Source: Dokdonella sp. (GTDB taxonomy: Bacteria > Pseudomonadota > Gammaproteobacteria > Xanthomonadales > Rhodanobacteraceae). From it: 64,000 nt of DNA. The DNA lies in NCBI GenBank assembly GCA_023228465.1, contig JALOBC010000008.1, positions 42,479-106,478 of the forward strand. Direction: 5' to 3'. Made by a program: the position numbers and the translations under genes. Every line of letters starts with the position of its first letter. Position 1 is the stretch's first letter. Positions 3,858 through 60,234 of this stretch are shown here, in pieces. The notes beneath the pieces are model-generated. The model had not been told where the DNA came from and searched no databases. It worked only from the letters and a program-made list of their open reading frames with translations.

Positions 3858-5564
3858 TCAGTACACGTCGCGGCGGTAGCGGCCCGTCGCCATCAGATGA
3901 TCGACACCAGCGCGACCGATGCTCTCGACCAGCACGGCTTCGACGCCGGGCGCCATGCCCTCGCGACTGCCGCACACGTGGATCGCCGCGCCGGCGTCGA
4001 TCCAGGCGCGCAGCAGCGGGGCGACCGCGCGCAGGCGATCCTGCACATGCACGCGCTCGGCCTGATCGCGCGAGAAGGCAAGATCGAGGCGGTCGAGGAA
4101 GCCCTCGCCCCGCCAGCGCAGGATGTCCTCACCGTAGTGGAAGTCGCAGCTGGCGTTGCGTTCGCCGAACAGCAGCCAGTTGCGACGCTGGCCGCGTGCG
4201 ATGCGTTGCTTGAGCAGGCTGCGCAGCCCCGCCATGCCACTGCCGTTGCCGATCAGGATGAGCGGACGCGCATCATCGGCGAGATGGAAATTCGGATTGC
4301 TGCGCAGGCGCAGTTCAATCGTGGCGCCGAGCGCCGCATGCACCGTGAGCCAGGCGGCACCGACGCCGGGCGAACCATCCGGGCGCAGCGAGTGGCGCAC
4401 CAGCAGGTCGAGCTGCCCGTCGGCGGGCAGCGAAGCCACCGAATATTCGCGTTGCCCCAATGGGCGCAGGCGCTCGGCGAGTGCCGCGACCGAACAGTCA
4501 ACGACCTGCGCCACCGGCGGCAGGATGCTGCGCGACAGCAGTTCGGCGAGGGTGCCCGAGCCGTCGGCCGATGCCACCGGTGCCGCAGCGTCGAAGCCGC
4601 TTTCGCGCAACCAGGCATGTACGGCCTCGGGTGCGTTGCGCGGCGCGACCACGGCGACATCGCCCGCCTGCCAGTTCACCTGCACGCCTGGCGGCGGTGC
4701 CAGGGCAAGGTGGTAGCAGGCAGTACCGGCACTGCCTGGATTCAGCAAGCGACGCTCGCGCAGGCTCCAGCGCATGAAGCGCGGTTCGTCCCAGGCAGGC
4801 GGGCGCGCAACCTCGGCCAGTGCGCGCACGCGCGCCTGCCATTGGCCAAGCGCGGCCGCGTCGCCATCATCCACTTCGATGCGTTCGAACAGGGCCTGCG
4901 CGCCACAGGCGCCGAGCCAGGCGTCGAGCCGCCGGCCAAACGCGCAATAGTTCGTGTAGCTCTGGTCGCCCAGTGCCAGCACGGCGTATTTCAGCTGCGC
5001 CAGAGCCGGGCGCGTGCCAAGCACGTCGCGCACGAAGGGCAAGGCCGGATCCGGCGCATCGCCCTCACCCGTGGTGCTGGCGATCAGCAGCAGGCGGGTG
5101 GTTTGCGCCAGCAGGCGTGCATCGACTTCACCCAGGGCAGCCACGCGCGGCGCCTGCCCCGCGCCGGTCAACAGGGCCGCCGTCCGTGCGGCCAGCTCGC
5201 TGGCGAAGCCGGTCTGGCTGGCGTGCACGACGAGCACCCCGGTGGCCGACGCGCTGGCCGGTGCGATCCTCGCCGCACGGCGCGGCCGCGCCCGCAGGCA
5301 CAGGCCCGCGTAGGCGAGCAGCACGCCCAACGCGGCCACGCTCCGGGTGCCGGGCGGCACCGCCGGCACCGCCAGGTCTTCCTGCAGCCCGAGCAGCCAC
5401 AGCGCCAGCAAGGCAAGCGCAGCCAGGACCGCCGCGTTGGCAAGCGTGGATACGGACGGCAGGCGCCCGCCGCGCGGTGAACGACGCGCGTCCGCTCGCG
5501 GCACCCGCACCCACAGGGTATCCGGCGTTGCAACGGCGACCAGCAGCGCGCGCAGGAATTTCAT
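3858..5564 (-). CDS. Membrane-anchored flavodoxin/FNR-type NADPH flavoreductase (sulfite reductase alpha-like)
   Basis: 568 residues. Two hydrophobic segments (about 42-62 and 77-93) precede a flavodoxin-like FMN domain (HASQTGFASELA, STTGEGDAPDP), an FAD domain (REYSVASLP matches the RxYS motif) and an NADPH domain (LIGNGSGMAG, IHVCGSREGM), ending in Tyr as in cytochrome P450 reductase relatives. It should pass electrons from NADPH through FAD and FMN to a membrane or periplasmic acceptor. It is the last gene of the five-gene minus-strand operon with PepSY, DUF2271, DUF4198 and ApbE; its ATG overlaps the apbE stop by four bases. Its likely job is cytoplasmic electron input for an iron/flavin reductase; the acceptor is inferred from context. 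Confidence 0.85.
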   Translation of the reverse strand: MKFLRALLVAVATPDTLWVRVPRADARRSPRGGRLPSVSTLANAAVLAALALLALWLLGLQEDLAVPAVPPGTRSVAALGVLLAYAGLCLRARPRRAARIAPASASATGVLVVHASQTGFASELAARTAALLTGAGQAPRVAALGEVDARLLAQTTRLLLIASTTGEGDAPDPALPFVRDVLGTRPALAQLKYAVLALGDQSYTNYCAFGRRLDAWLGACGAQALFERIEVDDGDAAALGQWQARVRALAEVARPPAWDEPRFMRWSLRERRLLNPGSAGTACYHLALAPPPGVQVNWQAGDVAVVAPRNAPEAVHAWLRESGFDAAAPVASADGSGTLAELLSRSILPPVAQVVDCSVAALAERLRPLGQREYSVASLPADGQLDLLVRHSLRPDGSPGVGAAWLTVHAALGATIELRLRSNPNFHLADDARPLILIGNGSGMAGLRSLLKQRIARGQRRNWLLFGERNASCDFHYGEDILRWRGEGFLDRLDLAFSRDQAERVHVQDRLRAVAPLLRAWIDAGAAIHVCGSREGMAPGVEAVLVESIGRAGVDHLMATGRYRRDVY

Positions 5565-6595
5565 CGGCGCTCCAGCAACGCAGCGAAGGCCGGCGACATG
5601 CGCTCCGCCAGGCCGTCGCCTTCATGCACGATCAACAGCACCGCCAGGCCGCGCTCGCTGGCCCAGGCCAGGCCCTGCTCGGGCCCCAGCACCATGATGG
5701 CCGTGCCGGTCGCATCGGCCCGCATGCAGTCGTCGGCGACCGTCGTGACCGAGGCGATGCGCTGCGCGACCGGCCAGCCAGTGCGCGGGTCGATGTGATG
5801 TGAATAGCGCCTGCCACCGTCGGCAAGGAAATGGCGGTAGTCGCCCGAGGTCGCGATGGATTGCTCGCGCAAGGCAATCACGCGTTCCACTTCGTCCGCG
5901 GCAGCAACCGGGCCGGCTGCGGCACCGGGCCTTTCGATCGCCACCTGCCAGTCGTGGCCGTCCGGGCGTCGTCCGCGCGCGCGCAGTTCGCCGCTGATGT
6001 CCACCAGATAGGCCTGGACGCCCTGGCGGTCGAGATAGCGCGCGATCTGGTCGGTGCCGAAGCCCTTGGCGATGGCCGACAGATCCAGTTCCACGCCGCC
6101 TGGCTGCAGCACGCGCCGGGTGGCGGCATCGAGTTCGACCCGTTGCCAACCCACTCGCGCGCGCGCCGCCTCGATGGCCGCCGGGTCGGGCACCCGTGGG
6201 CCCTGGCTGCCGGGCCCGAAACCCCACAGGTTGACCAGCGGCCCCACGGTCGGGTCATAGGCACCCCCCGTATCGGCCGCCAGCGCCAGGGCATGCTCGA
6301 GTACGGTGAAGAACTCTTCCGGCAGCACCTGCCAGCGACCCGCGCCAGCCCGGTTGTAGCGACCCAGATCCGAGTCGGCCTGCCAATGGCTCATCTGCGC
6401 CACCACCCGGTCCACTTCAGCCTGGATACCGGCCTGGAGCGCGGCGCGCGCCACGCCCGGCGGGCGCAGCAGCTTGACCGACCAGGTCGTGCCCATGGTC
6501 CGGCCCGACAGGGCTTCCAGCGCCGGCGACGGCGCGCAGGCGCCGACCAGAGCCAGCGCCAGCAGCCCCCCGGCCAGGCACAGCATGCGTCGCAT
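5561..6595 (-). CDS. apbE: FAD:protein FMN transferase (ApbE), lipoprotein
   Basis: 344 residues. The N-terminus is a lipoprotein signal with lipobox LVGAC (Cys20). GRTMGTTWSV near residue 31, DLSAIAKGFGTDQ and GDYRHF are ApbE family signatures. ApbE uses FAD to attach FMN covalently to Ser/Thr in extracytoplasmic proteins bearing a Dxx[ST]GA[ST] sequon. Such a sequon (DGVSGAT) is present in the DUF2271 protein two genes upstream in this operon, a candidate substrate. The stop overlaps the flavoreductase start (ATGA). GAGGAACC precedes the ATG. Confidence 0.93.
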   Translation of the reverse strand: MRRMLCLAGGLLALALVGACAPSPALEALSGRTMGTTWSVKLLRPPGVARAALQAGIQAEVDRVVAQMSHWQADSDLGRYNRAGAGRWQVLPEEFFTVLEHALALAADTGGAYDPTVGPLVNLWGFGPGSQGPRVPDPAAIEAARARVGWQRVELDAATRRVLQPGGVELDLSAIAKGFGTDQIARYLDRQGVQAYLVDISGELRARGRRPDGHDWQVAIERPGAAAGPVAAADEVERVIALREQSIATSGDYRHFLADGGRRYSHHIDPRTGWPVAQRIASVTTVADDCMRADATGTAIMVLGPEQGLAWASERGLAVLLIVHEGDGLAERMSPAFAALLERR

Positions 6596-6615: not shown

Positions 6616-7425
6616 CTACTGTGGCAGCACTTCCAGCGTCGCGGTGTAGCTCGCGCGCCTTGTGGCGGCTTCCCTGAGCGTGGGCCTGGCGCCCTCGACC
6701 GACGCGTTCAACCAGTACATTCCGGGCGCCGGAAAGGTCATCGAGAACTGGCCCTGCGCATCGGTCCTGGTCTGGATCTCGCCCTGGCGATCCCGGTAGC
6801 GCGTGCCCCCGGCGATCGCCACGACTTCGAGGCCGGCCGCCGGCTTGCCATCCATGAGCAGGCGGAAGCTTGCCGCCTCACCATCCACGAGGTCGTTGGG
6901 ATGGCTGACGGGCACCAGCTCCAGCCCCTTGCCGGTGGGCTTGAGGGCCGCCTGGTCGGGCTTGCCAAGCGTGGCGAAGGTCTCGACGCGGTTCTGGGTT
7001 TCGCTGATTTCAACCTTGGTCGCCCCGGCCGGGATCTCCAGCGCGCCGACGCGCCCGCGCACCCGGCCCGGCTTGCCCTGGGCATCTTCGAAACGCGCCA
7101 TCAGGCCATCGCTCACCACCGCGATGCGGTAGGTTCCAGCCTGCTGCAGGTGCAGGTCGAAGGTGCTGCGGTACTTCCCGCGCGCGACATTCTCCGGGGC
7201 GAGCGTGGTGCCGTCCGGTGCGGTCACCACCAGGCCGCCGATCGCCAGCGGCACGTGGTTGAAATAGAAAAGGTCGTTGGATACGGCGGCGTCCACCGTC
7301 AACCAGGCGTCGGCACCATCGGAGAGCACGGTTGCCGAGGGCACCAGGAACATCTTGTGCGCCGAAGCGGCGCCCGGCAGGGCCAGAGCCACGAGCAGGG
7401 CCAGCGAGGGCAAGCAGCGTCTCAT
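6616..7425 (-). CDS. DUF4198 domain periplasmic protein
   Basis: 269 residues from the ATG at 7425, preceded by AAGGAGAA; a longer frame upstream is not used because the signal peptide (LALLVALALPGAASA) begins here. The mature protein starts AHKMFLVPS, typical of DUF4198, followed by beta-rich repeats (residues ~80-150 and 175-265) resembling Ig-like or prealbumin-like folds. DUF4198 proteins accompany metal-related TonB receptors and PepSY reductases, and the conserved HKMFLVP start suggests metal binding at the new N-terminus; this is inference. It lies third in the operon, 20 bp from apbE and 19 bp from the DUF2271 gene. Confidence 0.82.
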   Translation of the reverse strand: MRRCLPSLALLVALALPGAASAHKMFLVPSATVLSDGADAWLTVDAAVSNDLFYFNHVPLAIGGLVVTAPDGTTLAPENVARGKYRSTFDLHLQQAGTYRIAVVSDGLMARFEDAQGKPGRVRGRVGALEIPAGATKVEISETQNRVETFATLGKPDQAALKPTGKGLELVPVSHPNDLVDGEAASFRLLMDGKPAAGLEVVAIAGGTRYRDRQGEIQTRTDAQGQFSMTFPAPGMYWLNASVEGARPTLREAATRRASYTATLEVLPQ

Positions 7426-7444: not shown

Positions 7445-7996
7445 TCAGGGTTCGAGGTCGAGGCGCACGGCGCCCAGTTCATCGCGGCCGGAGGCCTGCA
7501 GGTGGGTGGACGCTGTCGGTGGCCACTGGAAGGCAATGGCGAGCACCTCGCGGCCACCCACTTCGCGCGCCGCCTCGATCTTCAGGGTGTAGGCGCCGGG
7601 CGCGAGCCCGGCCAGCGGCGGGCCGGCGTCGTCGAAGTGCAGGCGGTACTGGCCGGCCGGTCGGGTCGCGCCACTCACGCCGTCGATCGGCAGGCGCTGC
7701 TCGCGGCCGCTGCGCCGCCACCATTGGCGCAGGTCCGCCAGCCACTTGGCGCCTGATTCCTGCTTGCCGGTGCCGGCGTCCTTGCCCTCCTTCTGCTGGT
7801 ACCAGACGGCGAGGTTGGCGGCGACGCTGCGATCCTCGCCCTCGATCCATACCGCCACATAGGGGCGGTGGTATTCGGCGACGTCCAGGCGCGGTATTTC
7901 GAGGGTAATGTCGGCGCTGGCGGCCAGCGCCGGCGTGGCCATGGGGAGCGCAAGCAGGGCAATCATCAGGAGTGGACGCACGGTCACCTCAGGCAT
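7445..7996 (-). CDS. DUF2271 periplasmic protein with ApbE flavinylation sequon
   Basis: 183 residues with a signal peptide (cleavage likely after PALAASA). The core has the DUF2271 signatures (VAVWIEGEDRSVAANLAVWY, KWLADLRQWW). Residues 105-111 are DGVSGAT, an exact match to the Dxx[ST]GA[ST] motif on which ApbE attaches FMN through the final Thr (T111). With apbE in the same operon, this protein is predicted to be a periplasmic FMN carrier between the PepSY membrane protein and an acceptor such as ferric iron. Its start overlaps the end of the PepSY gene by 8 bp, so the two are translationally coupled. Confidence 0.85.
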   Translation of the reverse strand: MPEVTVRPLLMIALLALPMATPALAASADITLEIPRLDVAEYHRPYVAVWIEGEDRSVAANLAVWYQQKEGKDAGTGKQESGAKWLADLRQWWRRSGREQRLPIDGVSGATRPAGQYRLHFDDAGPPLAGLAPGAYTLKIEAAREVGGREVLAIAFQWPPTASTHLQASGRDELGAVRLDLEP

Positions 7997-8642
7997 GGAC
8001 GAACAGGATCACGATCAGGAGCGGCACGACCAGTCCCAGCGCGACCATCGGCCAGGTGGCACGGCGCTGGCGCGCGTGGAGTTGCAGCAGCACCAGTCCG
8101 GTGATCGAAAAGACCAGTGCGCCGACCGCGAACAGGTCGATGAACCAGCCCCACAGCGGCCCGGCATTGCGGCCCTTGTGCAGGTCGTTGGCCCAGGCCA
8201 GCCAGCCCCGATCGGTGCGCTCCCAGGTCGCCTCGCCGGTTGCGACGTCGATGCTGACCCAGGCGTCACCACCGGGACGGGGCAGCGAGAGATAGATCTC
8301 GCCCGCGTCCCATTCTGCCGGACGCGCGCCCGCCTGGATGCCCCATTGCCGATCCAGCCAGGCAGCCAGCGCCGCGGGCAGCGGCGCGCGATCGGCATTG
8401 GCCTGCGCCTGCCCCTGCGCCGCCGCCAGCACGTCGCCTGGTACCTGGGCGGTACGCGTGGTCACGTCGGCGCGCGCGCCGATCCGGCCCGCGTGGTTGA
8501 GGGTGATGCCGGTAACGCTGAAAAGCAGCATGCCGACCAGGCACAGGGCGGCGCTGATCCAGTGCCACCGGTGCAGCGTGCGCAACCAGTAGGCGCGACG
8601 CCGCTGAACCGGCGCCGGCAGGTGCGAGACCGCCTCGTGCAT
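7989..8642 (-). CDS. PepSY-associated TM helix protein (putative extracytoplasmic iron/flavin reductase membrane subunit)
   Basis: 217 residues, started at the ATG at 8642 after AGAGGA. The protein has a cytoplasmic Arg-rich start, TM1 (about residues 27-47), a periplasmic PepSY-like region (GEIYLSLPRPGGDAWVSIDVATGEA), TM2 (about 155-180) and a C-terminal TM3. Histidines near the helix ends (LHRWHW, LNHAG, DLHKGRNAGP, LLQLHAR) are placed to ligate haem across the membrane, as in PepSY_TM reductases. It is the first gene of the operon, and a Fur-box-like palindrome lies ~50 bp upstream. It probably carries electrons from the cytoplasmic flavoreductase to the periplasmic DUF2271 protein. Confidence 0.82.
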   Translation of the reverse strand: MHEAVSHLPAPVQRRRAYWLRTLHRWHWISAALCLVGMLLFSVTGITLNHAGRIGARADVTTRTAQVPGDVLAAAQGQAQANADRAPLPAALAAWLDRQWGIQAGARPAEWDAGEIYLSLPRPGGDAWVSIDVATGEATWERTDRGWLAWANDLHKGRNAGPLWGWFIDLFAVGALVFSITGLVLLQLHARQRRATWPMVALGLVVPLLIVILFVHA

Positions 8643-8690
8643 GCATCCTCTGGGGAGCGTCGGCCAAGGGCCGGAACAGCGCATTCTAAA

Positions 8691-8705
8691 TGCGAATCAC
8701 TCGCA
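8691..8705 (-). promoter_or_regulatory. Fur-box-like inverted repeat
   Basis: TGCGAAT-C-ACTCGCA is a 7-1-7 inverted repeat matching the TGnnAAT-n-ATTnnCA Fur pattern with one arm mismatch, embedded in a short A/T-richer stretch (8687-8715) in otherwise very GC-rich DNA. It lies 49 bp upstream of the PepSY start and in the divergent region with the two-component genes. Iron repression of the reductase operon is inferred. Confidence 0.55.
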
Positions 8706-8885
8706 ATTACAATCACGATGCGTCGGCTCCGGGCACGCGCCGGCGCAGGGCGCCGGACAGACGCGCCGATCCGATCACGCGGCAAGATCCCTGCACCCGG
8801 ACACCGCGCCGCTGCGCCAGCCCGGTCGGCGGGCGCTTGTTCGCCGGCGCGCCCGGCCGGGTTCCGCCTGTGCTCTACTTCACCC

Positions 8886-9563
8886 ATGCGTATCCTCATC
8901 GTCGAAGACGACGCGGCCATTGCCGAGGCGATCGTCGCCGCGCTCGAACGTGCGGGCCATGCCGTGGACCGGCTGGAGAGCGGGCGCCAGGCGGACGTGG
9001 CCCTGCGTGATCACTTCTATGACCTGGTCGTGCTGGATCTGGGCCTGCCGGAGGTGGACGGCGTAGCACTCCTCAAGCGCCTGCGTGCCCGCGCCGACGC
9101 CGTGCCGGTACTGGTCGCCACGGCACGCGAGGAGCTGGAAGAGCGCGTGCATGCGCTGGATCTGGGCGCCGACGACTACCTGGTCAAGCCGTTTGCGCTG
9201 AGTGAACTGGAAGCGCGGGTTCGCGCCCTGCTCAGACGCCGCGCCACCCAGGGCGTCCCGGAGATCGAACTCGGCCGCCTGCGTATCGACCTTGCGCGAA
9301 GACGGGCACACCTGGACGACGCGCCGCTGGAACTCACGCCGCGCGAGTTCGGCCTGCTGGAAGCCCTGGTGGCGCGCCTGGACCGCGTGGTCAGCCGCGA
9401 ACAGCTGATCGAGGCGCTGTGCAGCTGGGACACCACGCTGACCGACAATGGCCTGGACATCGCCGTGTACCGCCTGCGTCGCAAGCTGGAGGGCAGCGGC
9501 GTGGGCATCCGCACCGTGCGCGGGGTCGGCTATCTGCTCGAGGTGGCCGATGCGCACACCTAG
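8886..9563 (+). CDS. OmpR/QseB-family response regulator
   Basis: 225 residues. The receiver domain shows the acidic pair E7/D8/D9, the phospho-acceptor Asp51 (VVLDLGLPEVDG) and Lys in YLVKPF; the C-terminal winged helix shows LTPREFGLLEALV and RTVRGVGYLLE. It is a DNA-binding regulator phosphorylated by the kinase immediately downstream, whose start overlaps it by 14 bp. Closest by look to the QseB/TctD/PmrA group. Its targets are unknown; being divergent from the iron-reductase operon makes that operon a candidate. The true ATG is 8886; longer upstream frames read across the divergent promoter. Confidence 0.9.
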   Translation: MRILIVEDDAAIAEAIVAALERAGHAVDRLESGRQADVALRDHFYDLVVLDLGLPEVDGVALLKRLRARADAVPVLVATAREELEERVHALDLGADDYLVKPFALSELEARVRALLRRRATQGVPEIELGRLRIDLARRRAHLDDAPLELTPREFGLLEALVARLDRVVSREQLIEALCSWDTTLTDNGLDIAVYRLRRKLEGSGVGIRTVRGVGYLLEVADAHT

Positions 9564-10917
9564 CCTGCGCCGGCGACTCCTTACCATCCTGGCCGCGCCC
9601 ATGGCGCTGGCCTGGCTCGCCAGCGGCGCGCTCATCTACGTGCTGGCGCTGCACTACGCGAACATCAACTACGACCGCTCCCTGCGCCAGGGGGCGATTG
9701 CGCTGGAACAGATGATCAGGAGTGCTGCCGGCCGGCCAGAGCTCAGTCCGCAGGCGCGCATCCTGATGGAATACGATCCCACCAATCCCGGCCTCTACGC
9801 CGTGCGCAGCCTGCGCCACGGACTGCTGGCTTCGAACCTGGACCTGCCCGCACCCGACCCGCTGCCCGCGCTCGGCGCGCCGCCGCAACTGTACTCGGTG
9901 CAGGTGGGCCGGCAGTCGCTGCGCATGGCAGCGTTGACGATGACCGCGGACGACCCCGATGACGAAATCCTGGTGGCCGTCGCCGAGACCCTGCGCGAGC
10001 GCCGCGCGCTGGCGCGTGAAATCCTCGTCGGGACGCTGCCGGTCGTGCTGCTGCTGATCGCGACCGTGCTGGCTGTGGTCTGGATGGCGGTCAGCCGGGG
10101 CCTGCGCCTGCTCGATCCACTGACCGAGCAGATCGCGAGACGGCCGGCCAATGACCTTTCACCGCTGGACCCGTCGGTCGTGCCGATCGAGATTCTCCCG
10201 CTGACGCAAACCATCGACGCGTTGTTTGCCCGGCTCCGGCAAACCCTGGAGCTGCAGGAGCGATTCATTGCCGATGCCGCACATCAGCTGCGCACGCCGC
10301 TCGCCGGGCTGCGCCTGCAGGCCGAACGCGCACTGGCCGACCCGCGGCCGGAGAGCGTGCGCGCCGCACTCGTGCACGTCGAGCGCCTGGCGGCCGGTGC
10401 CGGCCGGGCGGCCGGACAGTTGCTGGCGCTGGCGCGCGCTTCGGCCGATGAACAGGGCCATCCGGCGGTCGTGGATGTCGCCCAGCTGGCGCGTCGCTAC
10501 CTGGCCCAGCGGGTGCCCGATGCACTGGCACAAGGCATCGACCTGGGCTACGAGGGTCCGGTCTCCGGCGCGCTCGTGCCGGGCGATCCGGTGATGCTGC
10601 GCGAAGCCCTGGTCAACCTCGTCGACAATGCCCTGCACCACGCGGGCGCGAACGGCCGCGTGACGGTCACCGTGACGCGGCTGGAAGGCGCGATCGAACT
10701 CGCCGTGGAGGATTCCGGCAGCGGCGTGGATGAGCGCTGGTGGCCACGCCTGGGCGAGCGCTTCTTCCGTCCGCCGGAAAGCACCCGCGAAGGCTCCGGC
10801 CTCGGCCTGGCCATCGTCCGCCGCATCGCCGAGCGGCACGGTGCCAGCGTCACATTCGGCCGCGCACGCGAGGGCGGGCTGCGCGCCGCGCTCCACTTCC
10901 CGCCACCCGCGGCCTGA
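9550..10917 (+). CDS. Two-component sensor histidine kinase (TctE/QseC type)
   Basis: 455 residues from the ATG at 9550, inside the end of the response regulator gene. TM1 (about 12-34), a periplasmic 2CSK_N-like sensor domain (about 35-155), TM2 (about 158-182), a short HAMP linker, the HisKA box AADAAHQLRTPL with His245, then N box NLVDNALHHA, G1 DSGSGVDERW and G2 GSGLGLAIV. Autophosphorylates and passes phosphate to the neighbouring regulator. The signal is unknown; 2CSK_N sensors of this group include tricarboxylate sensors, so iron-citrate is a possibility but not shown. Confidence 0.9.
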   Translation: MRTPSLRRRLLTILAAPMALAWLASGALIYVLALHYANINYDRSLRQGAIALEQMIRSAAGRPELSPQARILMEYDPTNPGLYAVRSLRHGLLASNLDLPAPDPLPALGAPPQLYSVQVGRQSLRMAALTMTADDPDDEILVAVAETLRERRALAREILVGTLPVVLLLIATVLAVVWMAVSRGLRLLDPLTEQIARRPANDLSPLDPSVVPIEILPLTQTIDALFARLRQTLELQERFIADAAHQLRTPLAGLRLQAERALADPRPESVRAALVHVERLAAGAGRAAGQLLALARASADEQGHPAVVDVAQLARRYLAQRVPDALAQGIDLGYEGPVSGALVPGDPVMLREALVNLVDNALHHAGANGRVTVTVTRLEGAIELAVEDSGSGVDERWWPRLGERFFRPPESTREGSGLGLAIVRRIAERHGASVTFGRAREGGLRAALHFPPPAA

Positions 10918-58047: not shown

Positions 58048-60234
58048 ATGCCGATTTTCCGCACTTTCCTCCTGCTTGCACTGCTTGCAACGCCACTGTC
58101 CGCCCGCGCGGCCGATGCCGCCGCCGATCCGCCCGACAAGACCGCGAAGACCGAGCTCGCCCCGGTCGAGGTGAAGGGGCAACGCCTGGAGGGCTACCAC
58201 GCCGACGCCTCGCAGCTGGACAGCTTCGGCAGCTTCGGCGCAGCGCCGATCGGCGATACGCCGGCCGCGATCAGTGTCATCACGCGCGAGATGATCGAGG
58301 ACCTGCAGCCGCGTTCGCTGAGCGAGCTCGGCCACGCGGATGCCGCCGTGGGCGACAACTATGCTCCGGTCGGCTACTACCAGAACCTTGCCATCCGCGG
58401 CTTTCCGCTGGATCTGGCTACCGGCTATCGCATGAACGGCCTGACCATCACCGGCGAGCAGCCGCTGGCGCTGGAGGACAAGCAGCGCGTGGAGATCCTG
58501 AAGGGCCTCGGTGGCCTGGAAGCGGGCATCGTCTCGCCGGGCGGGCTGGTCAACTTCGTCAGCAAGCGTCCCGCCGACGTCGGCCAGGCCACGCTCGGCA
58601 CCGATTCGTACGGTTCCCGCTATTTCGCGGCGGACCTTGGCCGCTGGCTGACGCCGGAGTTCGGCCTGCGCATGAATGTCGCCCATGAAGACATCCACTC
58701 CTGGGTCGAGCACGCCGATGGCCGGCGCAACTTCGCCGCCCTGGCCGCCGACTGGAAGCTGACCGATGCGGGCGTGCTGCGCTTCGATGGCAACTGGCAA
58801 GGCACGTCGCAGCGCTCCGTATCGGGCTACCAGCTCCTCGGCGGCAACGCGCTCCCGCCGCATCCCAGCCGCACGCGCATGCTGGGCTTCCAGCCCTGGC
58901 AGCGGCCGACCGACATCGACGCGCGCAACGCGATGCTGCGTTTCGAGCAGCGCCTCGGCGACTGGAACCTCCAGCTCGCCGCCAGTCACAGCCGCTCGCG
59001 CATCGACGACAGCGTCGCCTTCGCCTATGGCTGCTTCTACACGCCCGAATGCGAGGATGGCAGCTACCCGGGCTGGTACTTCGCGCCGAACGGCGACTAT
59101 GACATCTACGATTTCCGCAGCCCGGATGACACCCGCACCAACGACGAGGTCCGCGCGGTGCTGAACGGGGGTTTCAGCACCGGATCGCTGGAACACGAGC
59201 TCAGCGTCGGCGCCAGCGACTTCCGCCGCACCATGGACAGCCGCGGCTGGGTGTACGACTACGTCGGCAGCAGCAACATCGACGTCATCGACATCCCGGT
59301 GTTCGCGCCCTCGCCGACGCAGCCCGGGCCACTGCAGCGGCGCCTGACCAGCTGGCAGCGCGCGGTGTTTGCCCTGGACCGCGTGCATCTTGGCGAGCAC
59401 TGGCAGGTGCTGGCCGGCGCGCGGCGCCTGGAGCTCGACGAGCGCGCCTTCGGTGACGAAGGCGAAGTCGTGCGCGACACGCGCCTGTCCCGGACCCTGC
59501 CGCAGGCGGCACTGATGTGGCAGCCCGATGCGCGCTGGACCACCTACGCGAGCTACAGCGAAAGCCTCTCGCTCGGCGCCGAAGCGCCCTACTGGACCAG
59601 CAACGGCGGCGAGCTGATGGGCCCGCGCGTCGCGCGCCAGATGGAGCTGGGCACCAAGTTCGACTGGAACGGCCAGCTCAATCTGGGCGCCGCGCTCTAC
59701 CGCATCCGCCAGCCCTGGCAGTTTGCACGCCCGGACGCCACGCCCGAGGGCTTTACCTTTGTCGAGCAGGGCCAGGAGGAACGGGAGGGCCTCGAACTCA
59801 GCGCCGCGGGCCAGCTGGCCGAATCGCTGCGCGTGTTCGGCAGCCTGAACTGGATCCGCGCACGCGCGACCGGCTCGGGCGTACCGGCCTATGAAGGCCA
59901 CCAGATGGGCAACGTGCCGCAGCTGCGTACCGCGCTGTTCCTCGACTGGCGCCTGCCGGTCGCGCCCGACCTCGCGCTGCTCGCCGGCTGGCGCCACGCG
60001 GGCAGCAATGTGGCCACGCCCGACGGCGTGACGCGCGTGCCGTCCTACGACGTGTTCGACCTCGGCCTGCGCTACACCACGCGCTGGAACGGCCAGGCAC
60101 TGGTGTGGCGCCTCGCCATCGACAACGTGACCGACCGCTTCTACTGGCGCGACACGGGCTCCACGCTCGGCGACAGCTATCTCTTCCCCGGCACGCCGCG
60201 ACTGGCGCGCCTCAGCCTCGACTGGTCGTTCTGA
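58048..60234 (+). CDS. TonB-dependent outer-membrane receptor, TPP-riboswitch controlled (probable thiamine uptake)
   Basis: 728 residues. Signal peptide (FLLLALLATPLSARA), plug domain (DTPAAISVITREMIEDLQPR, NLAIRGFPLD, RVEILKGLGGLEAG, GGLVNFVSKRP) and a 22-strand-type barrel ending in Phe, as required for BamA recognition. By sequence it resembles FhuA/FpvA-type siderophore receptors, but the TPP riboswitch and the following PnuC-type gene point to thiamine or a thiamine compound as substrate. Stop is 5 bp before the transporter gene. Confidence 0.92.
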   Translation: MPIFRTFLLLALLATPLSARAADAAADPPDKTAKTELAPVEVKGQRLEGYHADASQLDSFGSFGAAPIGDTPAAISVITREMIEDLQPRSLSELGHADAAVGDNYAPVGYYQNLAIRGFPLDLATGYRMNGLTITGEQPLALEDKQRVEILKGLGGLEAGIVSPGGLVNFVSKRPADVGQATLGTDSYGSRYFAADLGRWLTPEFGLRMNVAHEDIHSWVEHADGRRNFAALAADWKLTDAGVLRFDGNWQGTSQRSVSGYQLLGGNALPPHPSRTRMLGFQPWQRPTDIDARNAMLRFEQRLGDWNLQLAASHSRSRIDDSVAFAYGCFYTPECEDGSYPGWYFAPNGDYDIYDFRSPDDTRTNDEVRAVLNGGFSTGSLEHELSVGASDFRRTMDSRGWVYDYVGSSNIDVIDIPVFAPSPTQPGPLQRRLTSWQRAVFALDRVHLGEHWQVLAGARRLELDERAFGDEGEVVRDTRLSRTLPQAALMWQPDARWTTYASYSESLSLGAEAPYWTSNGGELMGPRVARQMELGTKFDWNGQLNLGAALYRIRQPWQFARPDATPEGFTFVEQGQEEREGLELSAAGQLAESLRVFGSLNWIRARATGSGVPAYEGHQMGNVPQLRTALFLDWRLPVAPDLALLAGWRHAGSNVATPDGVTRVPSYDVFDLGLRYTTRWNGQALVWRLAIDNVTDRFYWRDTGSTLGDSYLFPGTPRLARLSLDWSF

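Follow-up and report, generated by a model that had tools for sequence, protein, structure and literature searches.

A putatively Fur-controlled operon with a predicted flavinylated DUF2271 protein in Dokdonella sp., and drift of its acceptor site among relatives

Described PepSY-DUF2271-ApbE systems and the Dokdonella operon

PepSY-like gene clusters, as described by Meheust in 2021, often encode ApbE together with DUF2271 (2833 clusters) and DUF4198 (1500 clusters) proteins; according to that study, they contain PepSY_TM proteins, the DUF2271 proteins of ApbE clusters bear an [ST]GA[ST] motif, and a role in iron assimilation was proposed for them (PMC8238504). The DUF2271 protein of Amantichitinum ursilacus was found to be flavinylated by its own ApbE, and a Thr-to-Ala replacement in the motif abolished the modification (PMC8238504). 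In Caulobacter, the CC3059-CC3063 locus (CCNA_03155-03159) encodes a transporter, a DUF2271 protein, a DUF4198 protein, ApbE and a sulfite reductase flavoprotein, and its expression rises when iron is limiting or fur is mutated (PMC3751524); the same locus has been termed PepSY-like, and its disruption lowers fitness in EDTA (PMC11870441). Conserved His residues have been proposed or shown to be haem ligands in the PepSY family members FoxB, VciB and HiuB (PMC12424826, PMC11334425, PMC8238504), and in Alteromonas, genes for DUF4198/DUF2271 proteins adjoin iron-responsive TonB receptors (PMC7190382).

A comparable operon is present in a 64,000-nucleotide stretch of Dokdonella sp. (contig JALOBC010000008.1 of assembly GCA_023228465.1, positions 42,479 to 106,478; hereafter the window). 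Five minus-strand genes are transcribed in the order PepSY_TM-like, DUF2271, DUF4198, ApbE and CysJ-like flavoreductase, with a divergent two-component system upstream:

7989-8684, minus strand: PepSY_TM-like membrane protein (PF16357, 269.1 bits; PF03929, 40.4 bits), with its start perhaps at the ATG at 8642
7445-7996, minus strand: DUF2271 protein of 183 aa (PF10029, 160.9 bits against a cut-off of 27.3)
6616-7425, minus strand: DUF4198 secreted protein (PF10670, 190.7 bits)
5561-6595, minus strand: ApbE FAD:protein FMN transferase (PF02424, 303 bits)
5834-5851, minus strand: TSGDYR segment of ApbE (aa 249-254), which holds S250 and Tyr253, the residue covarying with the acceptor site in relatives
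3858-5564, minus strand: CysJ-like NADPH flavoreductase (PF00258, 89.1 bits; PF00175, 26.9 bits)
8886-9563, plus strand: OmpR-type response regulator (PmrA/QseB-like), divergent from the operon
9550-10917, plus strand: sensor kinase with a 2CSK_N domain (QseC-like), divergent from the operon

In gene types and gene order, all five match the Fur-regulated Caulobacter operon (PMC3751524, PMC11870441); in the window a two-component system lies divergently upstream, and regulation is read from an upstream box (see below). Both PF03929 and PF16357, either of which identifies a PepSY-like system when found in a flavinylation cluster, were detected, as was the frequent, though not obligatory, DUF4198 partner. 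Here the NADPH reductase has a CysJ-like gene of its own, whereas NAD-binding domains were reported inside 1077 PepSY-like genes (PMC8238504). The operon is an ordinary, well-formed member of an already published system type. The original prediction had placed a PepSY membrane protein and a flavoreductase in this operon, with apbE two genes away from the DUF2271 gene; Pfam matches identified both proteins, and apbE (6595-5561) indeed lies two genes downstream.

The window ApbE could be aligned over most of its length to the solved ApbE structures 5mgy and 6nxi. Its triad columns are filled by S250, H266 and D294, with the same spacing as in the Ser241-His257-Asp285 triad of V. cholerae ApbE (PMC12052999), and a lipobox (LVGAC) was recognised by eye. 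The reductase, predicted to be the cytosolic electron donor, matched the sulfite reductase flavoprotein 6efv with 166.4 bits; its FAD domain (PF00667) scored only 20.5 bits, i.e., under the cut-off of 32.3, and hydrophobic stretches were noted by eye at its N-terminus. The PepSY protein is a predicted transmembrane haem electron conduit, the haem being deduced from six conserved His residues in a 44-row alignment (H41, H169 and H230 invariant; H38, H64 and H203 conserved in at least 90% of rows). In contrast to FoxB, VciB and HiuB, it is a short, PF16357-type protein for which the searches by fold and by sequence found no match to a solved structure: with its model (pLDDT 86.7), nothing in the PDB matched at E <=0.001, its profile gave no convincing sequence match, and FoxB was recovered by neither route.

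Among the best 80 of 587 confirmed DUF2271 places, the divergent two-component pair is present in 14 of 17 loci whose records are titled Luteibacter (5/7), Dyella (8/8) or Dokdonella (1/2) and possibly constitutes a second control layer. Also near the operon, between 12811 and 19184 of the window, are SUF genes (SufB, an ABC ATPase, SufD, a class-V aminotransferase and an Rrf2 regulator), together with a GNAT acetyltransferase and a Rieske protein.

The predicted DUF2271 acceptor site and its conservation

The DUF2271 protein begins with a signal peptide (by-eye reading), followed by a beta-sandwich. Its residues 105-111, encoded on the minus strand by codons 7684-7664, read DGVSGAT in the translation of 7996-7445, confirming the exact Dxx[ST]GA[ST] sequon claimed for this protein. 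A chance origin of DGVSGAT was rejected as unlikely: the strict pattern (D-x-x-[ST]-G-A-[ST]) turned up in 191 of 200000 shuffled versions of the protein, and DGVSGAT is the only strict sequon in 61 rough gene calls covering 19309 aa of the window, although these calls are crude and do not include, at the least, the response regulator and the AraC-type genes. The AlphaFold2 model of the protein (mean pLDDT 81.0) consists of a beta-sandwich and one helix, and places the motif, mostly at low confidence, in a coil that separates helix 82-95 from strand 115-122 (residues 91-110 have a pLDDT of about 65). The best sequence match in the PDB, a designed helical repeat protein (E 0.0047), was regarded as due to chance, and the PDB fold matches were weak, being mostly C2 domains with a best E of about 1e-3.

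The proposal that this site is an ApbE acceptor agrees with the published A. ursilacus protein, in which the corresponding Thr is modified by that organism's own ApbE (PMC8238504). For the window, FMN attachment to Thr111 is a prediction from sequence, and a very likely one, which would make the DUF2271 protein a periplasmic flavinylated carrier. One ApbE and one DUF2271 protein were found in its own genome, and a search for FMN_bind, NQR2/RnfD and DUF3570 relatives returned none there. DUF2271 is therefore the only candidate substrate found for the single ApbE among the classes searched, and because of this one-to-one situation a single knock-out should be easily readable in this organism.

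The conservation of the site was surveyed at all 67 other DUF2271 places over the cut-off in a 398-genome sample of the phylum, and at 33 from the order. By a rule of our own, class A comprises the PepSY operon type (PepSY in the locus or a score >145, with two loci placed here without PepSY found nearby), class B mostly shorter DUF2271 proteins with sites such as DGITGAS, and class C fused ORFs. ApbE was over the cut-off in 290 of the 398 genomes and DUF2271 in 65, all 65 of which also have ApbE (Fisher 2.6e-10, with kinship ignored; since the genomes are related, this is no clean probability).

In the phylum sample (68 places including the window), class A proteins with apbE within 7 kb had the strict motif in 14 of 32 cases, [ST]GA[ST] without the Asp in 2 and neither in 16, so that searches requiring [ST]GA[ST] would miss 16 of these 32 apbE-linked, operon-type proteins. 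Class A proteins without a local apbE had the strict motif in 9 of 18 cases. The expectation that the motif would be conserved only where apbE is a neighbour was thus not borne out: the strict motif does not track apbE proximity, its specificity to apbE neighbours was rejected, and the motif alone is no proof of local modification. ApbE is encoded somewhere in each of the 65 genomes with DUF2271. Class B proteins had the strict motif in 7 of 11 cases with apbE (the remaining 4 having [ST]GA[ST]) and in 2 of 3 without, and class C fusions in 0 of 4. As to the motif being absent from most apbE-neighbouring homologues, the outcome is borderline, with the strict form in 21 and [ST]GA[ST] in 27 of 43 unfused apbE neighbours, and neither of them in the 4 fusions. 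Closer to the window, all 16 class A proteins among the 19 examined of the 39 DUF2271 places of its own family are strict at the aligned place. Of the 80 loci retained as the best of 587 confirmed places, 79 have apbE near, and 47 of these 79 carry the strict motif; the locus without apbE sits on a 6.4-kb contig that ends soon past the operon start.

D105 and T111 were invariant in alignments of 17 rows (A1) and 47 rows (A2). Moreover, 148 of 149 class A sites read end in Thr and one in Ser, with 147 beginning with Asp, although the reading pattern accepts only Ser or Thr as the acceptor residue and a loss of the acceptor could therefore not have shown. This pattern covered 149 of 150 rows, and the row escaping it (L192) is DGVSGPT, which also has the Thr; one locus with DGVSSAT (L204) was excluded from the trees, and the site of another (L121) was unreadable. 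The G-A pair, in contrast, drifts, with GPT, SAT, SPT and QPT all seen. The best tree, which is poorly resolved, requires at least 7 changes for Ala/Pro (4 of them forced by supported branches), 11 for Gly and 16 for strictness.

That Asp and the acceptor Thr are kept while G-A drifts, and that ApbE-DUF2271 fusions with degraded sites have the strict motif in 0 of 9 cases, might mean that DGVSGAT is kept for a loop of the DUF2271 fold, with flavinylation being incidental or absent here. We consider this highly improbable, as DUF2271 flavinylation has been published at the same Thr (PMC8238504) and the single ApbE of the genome has none of the other substrates sought. The main role of ApbE could also be FAD hydrolysis in the periplasm or action on another protein, with the DUF2271 proteins of the GPT and SAT lineages no longer being modified. 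In line with this, all 16 phylum genomes with an apbE-linked class A site lacking [ST]GA[ST] have a single ApbE and lack FMN_bind, NQR2/RnfD and DUF3570, and published single changes of the G or A brought flavinylation down to about half. The same tested changes nevertheless left about half of the flavinylation in place, the Ser, His and Asp of the triad are present in 41 of 41 ApbE proteins whose partner site has Pro before Thr, and Ser or Thr is kept at every class A site read (the pattern demanding one of them), which makes a hydrolase or other-substrate role unlikely. FMN transfer to Thr111 by the ApbE of the operon is the reading retained below.

Class B (17 loci, no PepSY) has sites that mostly end in GAS, where FMN would sit on Ser; a flavoreductase-like gene is adjacent in 16 of 17 of these loci, and apbE lies about 3 kb away in 13 of 17. 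In the 14 fusions of class C, G-A is lost (HGIARPT, DTVTKPT and others) and the ApbE part is devoid of SGDYR, most of the nine fusions found first having SGHxx and the five new ones SGRGx or other forms; the triad His is also missing in two of those nine. Finally, a whole operon of proteobacterial-looking sequence occurs in a record titled Bacillus subtilis SK7B5, which is probably a case of contamination or mislabelling.

Probable iron control and the proposed electron route

The upstream region of the PepSY gene, the first of the operon, contains one further feature:

8689-8707, no strand assigned: Fur-type palindrome AATGCGAATCACTCGCAAT (19-mer)

This box agrees at 16 of 19 positions with the best of three Fur-type consensus strings; the classical E. 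coli Fur consensus had 0 matches in the window with <=3 mismatches allowed. Scored against these three strings, a Fur-type box of at least 14/19 was found in 107 of 153 PepSY upstream regions (250 nt each, some species being represented twice) against 25 of 1530 random points of the same loci. In the genome of the window, the box recurs with <=3 mismatches at one other place, and the ORF that follows it encodes a TonB-receptor plug domain. What is new here is the Fur-type box at 8689-8707 and its conservation upstream in many relatives. Judged from this box, the operon is probably iron-regulated, and since the box is of the Fur type, iron is the likely business of the operon, with iron reduction as its likely function. 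A TonB-dependent receptor (PF00593, PF07715) is also encoded within the window, at 58048-60234, and showed no match to the operon box within 3 mismatches.

As a whole, we consider it likely that the operon encodes a transmembrane electron line that reduces ferric iron outside the cytoplasm via FMN-DUF2271 under Fur control. NADPH would reduce the CysJ-like flavoprotein in the cytosol, from which electrons would pass to the haem-binding PepSY protein and across the inner membrane. The ApbE of the operon would place FMN on Thr111 of the periplasmic DUF2271 protein, which would then take up the electrons and deliver them to ferric iron, free or chelated; upon iron shortage, Fur repression would be lifted. 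The haem, the order of electron flow and the acceptor we infer, as we do the role of DUF4198. The original prediction had already drawn a route from NADPH over PepSY haem and FMN-DUF2271 to ferric iron: its main steps have been published for relatives and the Fur-type box fits it, with the haem and the ferric acceptor keeping the status of presumed elements.

The line could also be real and end on another metal, such as copper, or on a general periplasmic redox partner. CrpH, likewise a PepSY_TM protein, has been proposed as a copper reducer (PMC13038864), and the two-component system divergent upstream of the operon would suit such an acceptor. Against this stand the conserved Fur-type box, common to the operon and the TonB-receptor-like gene of its own genome, and the Fur control of the Caulobacter operon (PMC3751524), so that we regard an acceptor other than ferric iron as unlikely and favour ferric iron reduction.

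Apparent covariation of the ApbE active site with the acceptor site

The unexpected result hinted at by this analysis lies in the relatives, where a drifting sequon is accompanied by a covarying transferase active site. In an unplanned scan of ApbE columns (344 positions of the window's ApbE) against Ala or Pro at the acceptor site, position 253 differed most and position 254 third, both being situated in TSGDYR, beside the catalytic S250. When Tyr253 was compared with G-A across 128 operons, 73 had both, 48 had neither, 5 had G-A without Tyr and 2 had Tyr without G-A, which made position 253 the best-agreeing ApbE column.

With the hypothesis stated, new loci were collected: 11 from the class of genome G534, taken as alphaproteobacterial, and 33 from the order of genome G490, comprising all places over the cut-off in these two samples that the first set did not contain, to which a further 16 loci were added outside the plan. 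Of these 60 loci, 44 belonged to class A, and the removal of 4 duplicates and 5 without apbE left 35. Agreement was seen in 32 of 35 (20 with G-A and Tyr, 12 with neither, 2 with Tyr without G-A, and 1 with G-A without Tyr). By hand count, the planned loci alone agreed in 17 of 20 cases, with Tyr missing in 3 of 5 non-G-A rows. The two non-G-A operons that kept the Tyr have SGSYR and SGGYR, i.e., segments altered one residue earlier. Over all class A operons, 154 of 164 agree, and the DGVSGPT site of L192 is accompanied by TSGDSRR in its ApbE. Tyr253 is present in the ApbE of class B throughout (13/13 in the first set, 9/9 in the new one) and in none of class C (0/9 and 0/5).

On the supported branches of the DUF2271 tree, 2.4 of 6 pairs of changes went in the same direction and practically none in the opposite one; on those of the ApbE tree, 0.8 of 3 pairs went in the same direction, and no significance was reached. 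With unsupported branches included, the counts were 7 to 0 of 15 (DUF2271 tree) and 5 to 1 of 12 (ApbE tree). After control for relatedness, support for the apparent covariation of Tyr253 with G-A is weak.

The altered segments (SGDRW in Lysobacteraceae and Variovorax, other forms elsewhere) pair with GPT, SAT, SPT, APT and QPT sites that share the same Thr. This pattern might reflect a two-sided recognition code between ApbE and its acceptor, in which Tyr253, three positions past the catalytic Ser, pairs with the G-A of the sequon, an idea that we put forward tentatively and hold to be somewhat likelier wrong than right. If true, DUF2271 operons would provide natural flavin transferase-sequon pairs whose specificities are altered and may even exclude one another, and the sequon as published would be too narrow. 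Should the covariation hold, it would open a way to study ApbE specificity and supply new enzyme-tag pairs for labelling with flavin. A literature search combining ApbE, flavinylation and coevolution found no paper on the subject, which does not prove that none exists, and the motif section of a review on these enzymes (PMC12052999) makes no mention of covariation between ApbE and its site. In Variovorax and two genomes of group f16, RW occurs alongside G-A or S-A, which suggests that a change in the enzyme may precede the drift of the site.
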